Assembly (NCBI GenBank): GCA_020247395.1
Contig: JADCJC010000116.1
Location: forward strand, 1-39,460
Origin: Rhodocyclaceae bacterium
GTDB taxonomy: Bacteria; Pseudomonadota; Gammaproteobacteria; Burkholderiales; Usitatibacteraceae
Direction of reading: 5' to 3'
DNA: 39,460 bases
The notes under the pieces were generated by a model. The model saw only the letters and a list, made by a program, of their open reading frames with translations. It searched no databases and was not told the origin of the DNA. Below are positions 3,751-39,460 of the stretch, piece after piece. The number at the start of each line of letters is the position of its first letter. The stretch's first letter is position 1. The position numbers and the translations under genes are program-made.

Positions 3751-5154
3751 ATGACCATCCGCTCCCGTTTTGCTCCCAGCCCTACCGGCTACCTCCATAT
3801 TGGTGGTGCTCGCACTGCGCTGTATGCGTGGGCATTTGCCCGGCGCTACGGTGGCACCTTCATTTTACGTATTGAGGATACGGATGTGGAGCGTTCCACA
3901 CCCGAGGCAGTTCAAGCCATTCTTGATGGCATGCAGTGGCTGGGTTTGACGCCGGACGAAGGTCCGTTCTATCAGATGCGCCGGATGTCCCGATATAAGG
4001 AGGCTATCGACACGATGTTGGCGGCCGGTACTGCATACCATTGTTATATGTCGGCGGCTGAGCTGGATCAGTTGCGTGAAGCGCAGCGTGCCCGCGGACA
4101 TAAGCCGCGCTACGATGGAACATGGCGTCCGGAGCCGGGAAAAACCCTGCCGCCGATCCCGGCAGGTGTTCAGCCGGTCGTGCGCTTCCGCAACCCCGAG
4201 GAGGGCGTGGTGGCGTGGGAGGATGCGGTCAAAGGGCGCATTGAAATTGCCAACGCGGAACTCGATGACCTCGTCATTGCCCGGGCCGACGGCACGCCCA
4301 CATATAATTTTTGTGTCTGTGTCGATGATTGGGATATGAAGATTACCCATGTCATCCGCGGTGATGATCATGTCAACAACACCCCCCGTCAGATCAATAT
4401 CTTGCAGGCGCTTGGGGCGAAGGTCCCCGTGTATGCACATCTGTCGATGATTCTTGGGGACGATGGACAAAAACTATCAAAACGCCACGGCGCTGTCTCG
4501 GTGATGGAATATCCGGCAAACGGCTACGTGCGCGACGCCGTACTGAACTACCTCGCGCGACTCGGCTGGTCACACGGTGACGACGAAGTGTTCTCGATGG
4601 CGCAGTTTTGTGAGTGGTTTGATCTGGACCACATTACCCCTTCGGCGGCGCAATTCAACACCGAGAAACTGAATTGGCTGAACCACGAATACATTAAGCA
4701 GATGCATGGCGATACGCTAGGCGGAATGCTCCGCCCGTTCCTTCTCAAGGCGGGCTTGGATCCCGCGGCAGGGCCTGATGTAGTGAGGGTCGCTGAGTTG
4801 TTGCGCGACCGCGCGCCTACACTGGTTGAGATGGCGGCTCAAGCGCACTATTTCTACGCCCGCCCCCAAGTTGAGGCGGGCCTGCTGGCGCAGCACTTGT
4901 CGGACGCTGCAAAGCCGGCCGTTGTCTCGTTGGCGGGAAAACTCGCGCATATCGGCTGGACCAAAGCCGACGTTAGTGCGGCGATTAAGGCTGAAGTTGC
5001 CCAATTTGGCTTAAAAATGCCGCAGTTGATGATGCCTTTGCGGGTGTTGCTGACGGGGCAGACGCAGACGCCTGGCGTGGATGCTGTGATCGAAGTGCTT
5101 GGTCGGGAGGAAGTCCTCGCTAGGCTCGAGCGCGCGAATTTGCGCGCAGCCTGA
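3751..5154 (+). CDS. gltX: Glutamyl-tRNA synthetase
   Basis: Class I synthetase that charges tRNA-Glu; 467 residues, full length. The HIGH-type motif is in [18 protein letters not shown] and the KMSKS-type motif is KLSKRHGA. The C-terminal helical anticodon-binding domain runs from about residue 310 to the end. The start ATG precedes [13 protein letters not shown], the standard N-terminus. It sits just upstream of a tRNA-Ala/tRNA-Glu pair. Confidence 0.97.
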
Positions 5155-37525: not shown

Positions 37526-37949
37526 GCGCACACCATCGGGCACCACCTGCACCATCGGTGATCTGTACATCGACGGCGATTGGTTTTGCTTCATTTTGGA
37601 AGACCTCGTGCGCGAGGTGGAGGGCCAGCCAGTCGAGAGCTGGAAGGTCAAAGGCGTAACGGCCATCCCCGCCGGCACGTACCGCGTGCAGATCACCTAC
37701 AGCAACCGCTTCAAACGCGACTTGCCGCTGCTCGTGGGTGTGCCTGGCTTTGAGGGCATCCGCATTCATCCGGGCAATACCGATGCCGACACCGAAGGCT
37801 GCCTGCTCCCTGGCATGGCCTTGGGGCTGGGTGGCGAAAGCATTAGCCGCAGCCGCGAGGCATTCGAGGCACTCTTTGCCAAGCTGGATGCGGCAGAGGA
37901 CGCAGGCGAGGAAGTGGAAATCACCATTACCAACGCGAGGCAGATGTGA
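37509..37949 (+). CDS. DUF5675 protein, candidate endolysin
   Basis: 146 residues from a GTG inside the previous gene. Family features are LLLERTPSGTTCTIGDLYID, VTAIPAGTYRV and, most notable, IRIHPGNTDADTEGCLLPG (His87, Cys98), which recalls the H-x-N...S/T-x-GC active site of L,D-transpeptidase-type enzymes. It sits exactly where an endolysin is expected, between holins and spanins, and no other lysin gene is present. Peptidoglycan activity is inferred. Confidence 0.7.
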   Translation: MNLLLERTPSGTTCTIGDLYIDGDWFCFILEDLVREVEGQPVESWKVKGVTAIPAGTYRVQITYSNRFKRDLPLLVGVPGFEGIRIHPGNTDADTEGCLLPGMALGLGGESISRSREAFEALFAKLDAAEDAGEEVEITITNARQM

Positions 37950-38530
37950 TTGCTCTCGCGATGCGATGGCTTGATGTGGCGCTCCCCTTGTGGCGCATCG
38001 TCGCGGCCTTTACCGTGGTGGCCGCATTTGCCGCTGCGATTTGGTGGATACGCGGTACCGGCGTGCAGGCTGAGCGTGCCGAGTGGGTCGCCAAGATGGC
38101 CACCGCCAAGGCCGAGTGGCAGGCGGAGCTGGATAAAGCCAACGCCGCCAACCGCGCCACCGAGCGGCAAAGCGCTCAAGTTATTGCGGATGTCTCAACC
38201 TATTACCAAACGGAGCTGAAAAATGTGCAAGCCCAAAAAACTGCTGATCGCGCTGATGTGCAGCGCGGCGCTCTCCGGTTGTTCGACCCTTTTCAGTCCT
38301 TCCGGCTCGACGCTAACCCAATCCTGCCCAGATCCGGTGAGGCTTGCACCACCGCCGGCAGACGTGATGGTGAAACGGGACGCGAACTTTCGCGCGAGGT
38401 TACTGGCGATCTTCTCGATTTTGCCAACGACGCCAACGCCATCGTCAGCCAGCTCACCGCTGCCCAAGCCGTGATTATTGAGTATCAGCGGGTTTGCGGA
38501 GCTACTGCAAACGCCGCACCGCCGCGATAG
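37946..38530 (+). CDS. Rz-like inner-membrane spanin
   Basis: 194 residues from GTG 37946 (alternative ATG 37961). An N-terminal membrane helix (LPLWRIVAAFTVVAAFAAAIWW) is followed by a charged helical periplasmic part (AEWVAKMATAKAEWQAELDK) that would form the coiled coil. It works with Rz1 to fuse inner and outer membranes at lysis. Start overlaps the DUF5675 stop (GTGA). The C-terminal third, coded over the Rz1 frame, is less regular. Confidence 0.8.
   Translation: MIALAMRWLDVALPLWRIVAAFTVVAAFAAAIWWIRGTGVQAERAEWVAKMATAKAEWQAELDKANAANRATERQSAQVIADVSTYYQTELKNVQAQKTADRADVQRGALRLFDPFQSFRLDANPILPRSGEACTTAGRRDGETGRELSREVTGDLLDFANDANAIVSQLTAAQAVIIEYQRVCGATANAAPPR
38223..38474 (+). CDS. Rz1-like outer-membrane lipoprotein spanin (embedded)
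   Basis: 83 residues in a different frame, wholly inside the Rz gene. The signal peptide MCKPKKLLIALMCSAALSGC ends with lipobox LSGC, so Cys20 would be lipidated. A Pro-rich C-terminal part follows (LAPPPADV, LPTTPTPSS). GGAG lies 7 bases before the ATG. A nested Rz1 is the classical spanin arrangement. Confidence 0.85.
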   Translation: MCKPKKLLIALMCSAALSGCSTLFSPSGSTLTQSCPDPVRLAPPPADVMVKRDANFRARLLAIFSILPTTPTPSSASSPLPKP

Positions 38531-38549: not shown

Positions 38550-39005
38550 TCAGGAGGCAGGCGGTATGGTAGCCGCCCACACCGCCCGTTCGGGGCTGGA
38601 ATCGGCCTTCTGGCCAAGCCAAGCGGCATAGGCCGCGCTGTCGAATGGCACCAGCCGCACGAGCGGTTCGCTGGCCAGTAGTGCGGCACACGCTGATTGA
38701 TGTGGTCGCCACAAAATCGGCTCCCCGTCCCAGTCGTACATGTTGGCGTACCACACAAGCGGGATCGACTCTGGTTTGCCGAGACGCTCAATTTTGTCAT
38801 CAACCGCTTCAAGGATCGTGTCTATGGCGCGCTCCCGCCAGTCGCACAACTCACGCATGCGGCCAGCCACATCGGCGGGGACGGCGCGTTTGCCGTCCTC
38901 CCAATGCTGCCACGCACGATGAGAGGTGCCGCTGATCAGTGACGCAGCTTCTTGTTGCGTGAAAAAAAGCAAGCGCCGAAGCGCTTGCAATTCGGCGGCG
39001 GTCAT
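38550..39005 (-). CDS. Aca2-like (DUF1870/YdiL-type) HTH repressor
   Basis: 151 residues. The HTH is AELQALRRLLFFTQQEAASL, then SHRAWQHWEDGKRAVPADV, which closely follows the DUF1870/YdiL and Aca2 pattern I recall (ELQAIR..., WQ.WE.G..AVP.DV). The rest (VWYANMYDWDGEPILWRPHQ) matches too; the last 35 or so residues extend beyond Aca2's usual size. Aca2 proteins repress acr-aca operons by binding inverted repeats and, as reported, mRNA. The ATG overlaps the preceding stop (TAATG). It converges on Rz. Confidence 0.7.
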   Translation of the reverse strand: MTAAELQALRRLLFFTQQEAASLISGTSHRAWQHWEDGKRAVPADVAGRMRELCDWRERAIDTILEAVDDKIERLGKPESIPLVWYANMYDWDGEPILWRPHQSACAALLASEPLVRLVPFDSAAYAAWLGQKADSSPERAVWAATIPPAS

Positions 39006-39313
39006 TAAATTTCGATGCGGTCAATGATAGTCGCTGGAATTTCGTGGTCAAGCGTTAAATCGCCGTTTGGGCAGACCGTCTTGCCAAAAATGATGCCGTT
39101 TTCGCAGCGGCTAAAAGCCGCACATTGCACAATTGAATCGTCGTCAATGTAGAAAATCTTGGTGCCTTCGGTCATTGGCAAATACGAGGCAGAAAGTAGG
39201 TCGTTCCAACGCGGCAGGCCTGTCGAAAGTATTACGTCAAACGGATCGCCCCCTCGATTCGCTGTGCCGTAGACACCAGACGGGGCCGCTTTAATATTTG
39301 TGATTTTGCTCAT
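39005..39313 (-). CDS. Small acidic protein, candidate anti-CRISPR
   Basis: 102 residues from ATG 39313: SKITNIKAAPSGVYGTANRG, ILSTGLPRWNDLL, IFYIDDDSIVQCAAF and LDHEIPATIIDRIEI. By my count net charge is about -5. No recognised family, signal peptide or membrane helix. It comes first in the operon, and its stop overlaps the Aca2-like start, the acr-then-aca order. The same frame is open upstream through the (Gly-Arg)n repeat to the window edge, so the true N-terminus could be longer. Anti-CRISPR activity is inferred from context only. Confidence 0.55.
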   Translation of the reverse strand: MSKITNIKAAPSGVYGTANRGGDPFDVILSTGLPRWNDLLSASYLPMTEGTKIFYIDDDSIVQCAAFSRCENGIIFGKTVCPNGDLTLDHEIPATIIDRIEI

Positions 39314-39323
39314 ATTTAGCTCA

Positions 39324-39338
39324 CTTTCTTGAAGAAAG
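39324..39338. promoter_or_regulatory. Perfect inverted repeat upstream of the acr-like operon
   Basis: CTTTCTT-G-AAGAAAG, 7-bp arms, 10 bases before ATG 39313. It lies just after a possible -10 (TATATC on the minus strand, 39343-39338), so it is well placed to be the Aca-like repressor's operator. In mRNA the same bases could form a small hairpin next to the start codon. Confidence 0.6.
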
Positions 39339-39367
39339 ATATACGAATCCTTTCTGTTCCTACTAAG

Positions 39368-39460
<93 letters not shown>

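Follow-up and report, generated by a model that had tools for sequence, protein, structure and literature searches.

A probable Aca2-type autorepressor operon with an exchangeable first gene, a candidate anti-CRISPR locus, at the end of a prophage in a Rhodocyclaceae bacterium

At the right end of a prophage in a Rhodocyclaceae bacterium, a small gene overlaps a gene for a helix-turn-helix (HTH) protein, and the question raised by this pair is whether it is an acr-aca operon, that is, a candidate anti-CRISPR (acr) gene followed by the gene of its Aca2-like repressor. The pair lies in the window, the whole stretch of 39,460 nt that was analysed (GenBank assembly GCA_020247395.1, contig JADCJC010000116.1), which is one entire contig (C20) of a 3.9-Mb genome in 133 contigs. 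Two minus-strand genes beyond the spanins had been proposed in a preliminary description made from the letters alone, and both open reading frames (ORFs) are found at the coordinates and on the strand given there. They have one base in common (TAATG), which suggests that they are carried on one transcript:

39005 to 39313, minus strand: first gene, for a 102-aa acidic protein without a known family, candidate anti-CRISPR or other counter-defence protein (ORF call, null family searches, homologue in viral contig L004, AlphaFold2 (AF2) model)

38550 to 39005, minus strand: aca2-like gene, for a probable autorepressor of 151 aa, an HTH protein of the Aca2/YdiL family (Pfam PF08965, PDB matches)

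A small gene directly upstream of aca2 on a mobile element, with a one-base overlap, is the acr-aca layout. The pair is very probably an Aca2-type autorepressor operon, in which the 151-aa protein would be the repressor, and the fuller reading, that of an acr-aca2 type operon which a prophage carries beside its right attachment site, is favoured with moderate confidence. The gene pair, its family, the operator in relatives and the swapping of first genes are read from the sequences themselves; repression by the 151-aa protein, counter-defence activity and a CRISPR target are what these features point to.

The second gene is the better defined of the two. The 151-aa protein scores 77 bits against Pfam PF08965 (Aca2_YdiL; cut-off 23.8), the match covering residues 1-113, and a PDB search with a profile built from six relatives has solved Aca2 chains as its top four matches (7ezy, E 1e-15; 8w35; 7vjo; and Aca2 of phage ZF40, 7b5j, E 5e-13), with YdiL 1s4k close behind (E 7e-13). 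It is 37% identical to ZF40 Aca2 (46/124) and 35 residues longer, and R30 and R57 are present in both. In Aca2, R30 is required for autoregulation and R57 makes a dimer salt bridge (PMC8434428). An AF2 model of the 151-aa protein has a pLDDT of 49; by sequence, residues 1-118 align to solved Aca2. Together with the ZF40-type operator found in 4/4 relatives with promoter sequence, described below, the family profile, the solved structures and the two arginines bear out the earlier proposal of an Aca2-like repressor, and the evidence for repressor and operon is close to the best that sequence could provide.

The kinship with YdiL deserves separate consideration, given that YdiL of Salmonella (1s4k) comes close to the score of ZF40 Aca2 and that the chromosomal YdiL/DUF1870 regulators share the Pfam family and presumably the two-domain plan. 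The E. coli member (b1689) differs in having glutamate, not arginine, in the R30 column, although the R57 arginine is also present; its gene is annotated between the small RNA gene rprA and ydiM and is not immediately preceded by a gene for a small protein, and no GTTCGC-N4/5-GCGAAC occurs in its 15-kb stretch. In an 18-member tree 1/15 inner branches is well supported and the window clade joins neither ZF40 Aca2 nor YdiL with support; clustering with host YdiL, which the preliminary description had named as a counter-case, is not seen, but a grouping with ZF40 Aca2 is likewise without support from the tree. Given that PF08965 is found in 1/369 genomes of the class (the own genome) and in 2/150 relatives (the own genome and G140), the gene is better regarded as accessory than as a host ydiL.

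Repressor relatives 75-85% identical to the window's are carried by five viral contigs (L002-L006) and, as a second copy in the host, by contig C71. DNA upstream of the first gene is present for L003, L004, L006 and C71, L002 and L005 being cut, and in all four GTTCGC-N5-GCGAAC is flanked by a -35-like TTGACA/TTGACT on one side and a -10-like box on the other (C71:13391-13423 in the host copy). In ZF40, GTTCGC-N4-GCGAAC stands in the equivalent place of the acrIF8-aca2 promoter; the half-site, its position and a TCATCGG downstream are shared, whereas the spacer is 5 nt in the window's relatives and 4 nt in ZF40. The composite pattern of this operator plus TCATCGG at equal distance has four matches in 2.9 million viral contigs, namely the L003, L004 and L006 contigs and a fourth identified as ZF40 (100% over 4755 nt), and a single match in 300 genomes of relatives, own included, at the own C71. 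The window itself extends only 147 bp upstream from the start of the 102-aa gene before the contig ends in a hexamer repeat of GACCCC type. These 147 bp hold no ZF40-type operator or operator-type inverted repeat, and the window's own promoter would lie past the contig end; either further genes lie upstream, as in L006, or a different promoter is used. The operator could serve as a search bait for further genes of this kind. Elsewhere, GTTCGC-N4-GCGAAC was also seen on the Shewanella baltica plasmid pSB01-1 (L048 1950-1965(+)), downstream of a DUF1870 gene and ahead of the next gene.

The first gene is the harder one to place. Its 102-aa product is acidic (13 D+E against 8 K+R) and has no match in Pfam, NCBIfam, PHROGs, PADLOC, phages or PDB sequences, in agreement, as is the TAATG overlap, with its earlier description as a small acidic protein of no known family whose stop overlaps the HTH start. 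A known non-defence family, which would have spoken for another role, was not matched in Pfam, NCBIfam, PHROGs, PADLOC or the PDB, and neither was a known Acr in these five (the dedicated collections AcrDB and dbAPIS not among them); nor does the protein have a sequence match to the first-gene product of ZF40. Viral contig L004 encodes a full-length homologue, 60% identical, in the equivalent position, and comparison of the two genes gives a dN of 0.32 and a dS of 1.62, indicating purifying selection; the gene pair is on these grounds more than chance ORFs. The AF2 model, made from three sequences, is all-beta (pLDDT 80.6), and residues 46-102 are predicted to form a small SH3/Tudor-like barrel, which says nothing firm about function; Foldseek with this model finds nothing at E <=0.001 in the PDB or BFVD.

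What distinguishes the copies of the operon from one another is the first gene. It encodes 102 aa in the window and in L004, with a cut copy of this version in L002, 86 aa in L003, 118, 71 and 89 aa in the three ORFs of L006, and 144 aa in C71. L003 and L004 are identical at 448/462 nt of aca2 and at 163/181 aligned nt of the promoter, and their first genes (86 and 102 aa) are unrelated; compared with one another, the first-gene families show no match (best E 0.4). A Pfam scan took in nine proteins, namely five first-gene products (one of L003, three of L006, one of C71), two small Pasteurella proteins, the product of one gene behind aca2 in L006 and the Aca2-like protein of G140, the L006 118-aa protein being scanned from position 4111 and hence with two extra residues in front. 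The G140 protein matched PF08965 and the other eight were all below cut-off; in PHROGs, the same eight small proteins and the L004 102-aa protein gave nothing below E 0.1. Exchange of this sort is a mark of acr-aca operons, for which reason a counter-defence role is the reading that suits the 102-aa protein best, and a reasonably likely one. In the acr-aca reading that had been proposed from the sequence, then, the Aca2-like repressor holds, while the counter-defence role of the first gene comes down to guilt by association, albeit strong, from its exchange while the promoter before it and the aca2 behind it are conserved.

The same swapping bears on the idea that the pair is a toxin-antitoxin locus, with the first gene as toxin and the HTH protein as autoregulating antitoxin, in the toxin-first order of MqsRA and HigBA. 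The gene order and autorepressor layout are common to type II toxin-antitoxin loci (PMC9410906), and the HTH protein is weakly like MqsA (TIGR03830, E 5e-4, 19.8 bits, below the cut-off of 61.8). However, an antitoxin that binds its toxin should vary along with it, and here unrelated first genes are exchanged while the HTH gene hardly changes; moreover, no toxin family scored above cut-off in the first-gene proteins scanned. A toxin-antitoxin pair is for these reasons improbable.

Two of the relatives are of interest in themselves. L006 has a similar operon at 4117-4999(+), in which the small ORFs of 118, 71 and 89 aa stand ahead of aca2 and further ORFs behind it, with no known family found. 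The second acr-aca2 type operon of the host, with a 144-aa first gene and a 149-aa Aca2-like gene, lies at L021 4471-5354(-), which is about 12470-13353 of C71; this contig carries PRTRC ParB and a TraB-like gene and is by its gene content of plasmid type.

The favoured reading of the prophage operon would work as follows. A strong sigma-70 promoter would make the small counter-defence protein at once on infection, and the second gene would yield an Aca2-type dimeric HTH repressor that silences the operon by binding the inverted repeat between -35 and -10. This repression would also hold down the level of the first protein in the lysogen. The first gene would be an exchangeable cassette, of which the 102-aa version would most likely inhibit a CRISPR-Cas system; for an anti-CRISPR function of this particular protein the chances appear evenly balanced. 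The main caution against this reading is a published count in bacterial genomes, in which only 35/1223 Aca2-like proteins had acr genes upstream (PMC9410906); the count depends on the acr genes known at that time, and because of it kinship with Aca2 is not by itself sufficient for an acr claim. The same count, in which most Aca2-like proteins are not beside a known acr, together with the null Acr searches described above, would suit an ordinary phage moron, or a superinfection or lysogeny gene, that sits under an Aca2/YdiL-type regulator and has no counter-defence role. This is distinctly unlikely, given the ZF40-like operator half-site and its place, the swapping of cassettes, and the occurrence of an acr-aca2 type unit twice in one host, once on a prophage and once on a plasmid-type contig.

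If the operon does act against a CRISPR system, it can be asked which one the host possesses. The sole Cas1 found in the host is on contig C108, beside an array of 14 spacers (17-18 nt) with 25-nt repeats, the last of them degenerate, and the gene next to it is the N-terminal half of Cas12c (cas12c2 7v93, E 3e-52; 225 bits over half the NCBIfam Cas12c model, cut-off 250). The C-terminal half is found on contig C120 (372 bits); a contig break splits the gene, which may or may not be whole:

L020 3-3650 (C108), with the Cas12c remainder at L045 4245-6002(-) (C120): type V-C locus (Cas12c, Cas1, array)

To judge from these genes and the spacer length the host CRISPR system is of type V-C, and a search of the host for a Cas3_HD domain found none. 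Spacer 11 has an exact 18-nt match in the own contig C9 (L046 10148-10165(+)) with TA on the 5' side, and is thus self-targeting; this is in line with Cas12c2, for which a TN protospacer-adjacent motif and a 17-nt guide are reported (PMC9522604). BLAST gives this match an E of 0.17 with the whole 609-nt array as query, the seven further listed matches being weaker, array itself aside; by our own arithmetic, assuming equal base frequencies, the 14 spacers would be expected to give about 0.004 full-length exact matches in the host genome. C9 has a TrfA replication gene and on that account looks like a plasmid, so that the host appears to tolerate an element matched by its own spacer. An inhibitor would explain this tolerance, as would a broken Cas12c gene or a Cas12c that does not cut. 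The prophage in the window has no exact match from the host spacers, and the link between operon and Cas12c is circumstantial; that the 102-aa protein is an anti-Cas12c protein is accordingly put forward as a rather unlikely, if specific, proposal.

Counter-defence of another kind, directed under the same Aca2-type repressor at restriction, abortive infection or other systems, is also unlikely. It would accord with the diverse contexts of Aca2-like regulators (PMC8434428), with the clustering of anti-defence genes named in PMC7648647, and with a search of 12 further genomes of the genus, several of them incomplete, in which Cas12c had no match (0/12). In a set of 120 relatives Cas12c was found once, in the own genome. 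Nothing specific counts against it, except that the host has a CRISPR system, one spacer of which matches a resident plasmid-type contig. The case for an anti-CRISPR is of interest for this setting, in which the only Cas1 gene found belongs to the little-studied type V-C. Inhibition of Cas12c has been reported for the Cas12a inhibitor AcrVA1, in yeast (PMC10523329); in the open-licence literature searched this is the one case of Cas12c inhibition found, and no natural V-C inhibitor was found; a Cas12c inhibitor, if true, would be new. A specific one would bear on how phages and plasmids live with an effector that, in the case of Cas12c2, does not cut double-stranded DNA in vitro (PMC9522604). 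Whatever the target, the loci described here yield a short list of candidate counter-defence genes joined by one operator and one repressor.

A further feature lies within the start of the repressor gene, at codons 7-15 of aca2, where an 8-bp stem (GCAAGCGC/GCGCTTGC) with a 4-nt loop is followed by seven T:

38969 to 38988, minus strand: terminator-like hairpin, possible attenuator between first gene and aca2 (scan, comparison of copies)

Stem and T run are identical in 6/6 copies (window, C71, L002, L003, L004 and L006; L005 is cut), of which L002 and L004 are near-copies in this region, and the changes fall in the loop or outside. Over codons 17-72 of aca2, the window differs synonymously from four copies at 20-21 of 56 codons and from C71 at 3/56. 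That stem and T run are unchanged despite these synonymous differences downstream suggests constraint at the level of the RNA, and the hairpin is predicted to be a possible attenuator between the first gene and the repressor gene; it was noticed post hoc, and in a region of this kind 1.3 terminator-like sites are expected from the general scan. ZF40 differs in that no such hairpin is present in its aca2. It may further be proposed that the exchanged first genes (products of 102, 86, 118/71/89 and 144 aa) encode natural Cas12c inhibitors, carried by prophages and a plasmid-type element in one host, and that this built-in terminator would throttle the repressor and leave the inhibitor in excess; this too is unlikely.

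In its wider arrangement the locus can be compared with two known settings. In ZF40, gp31 and gp30, which we take to be acrIF8 and aca2, likewise place a small protein first and an Aca2-family HTH protein second, with two putative lysis genes encoded by the other strand; in ZF40 one small ORF stands between the pair and the lysis genes. In the Pasteurella phages Pm86, Pmp12 and CFP3 an ORF of 76-79 aa precedes an Aca2-like gene, and -35- and -10-like boxes flank an inverted repeat, yet the half-sites (TGTTCT, TGGTCG) and the first genes are different. These small Pasteurella genes (L008 2730-2960(+), L009 2726-2956(+) and L010 2708-2947(+)) are candidate acr genes in their own right.

The position of the operon on the prophage can be judged from its flanks. 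The left part of the window, which looks like host DNA, has one gene of Mrp/NUBPL type and one for a class I (Glu/Gln) tRNA synthetase, then tRNA-Ala and tRNA-Glu, and the prophage runs from tRNA-Glu onward (integrase, RecT, YqaJ nuclease, S24-type repressor, terminase, tape measure, spanin). In L003 and L006 the interval from the integrase match to the promoter of the operon contains a 97-nt stretch resembling the 3' region of tRNA-Glu (94% and 98% identity, respectively), and in L004, where no integrase match was found, a 30-nt stretch 97% identical to that region lies just upstream of the promoter. Given these tRNA-Glu-like stretches near the promoter, the operon would be the last prophage module before the right attachment site. 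On either side of it in the window are:

37946 to 38530, plus strand: Rz-like spanin gene, convergent with the operon (phrog_2466, E 6e-15)

39314 to 39460, minus strand: contig end, about 56 bp and then the hexamer repeat (about 39370-39460) (sequence)

The GACCCC-type repeat pattern (<=2 mismatches) has no second site anywhere in the own genome. One minus-strand frame crosses the repeat (39370-39460) and ends 2 nt short of the 102-aa gene. Another gene may end within 39314-39460, and the operon may extend further upstream. Inside the Rz-like spanin gene there is an 83-aa ORF (38223-38474(+)) whose start, by eye, resembles a lipoprotein signal.
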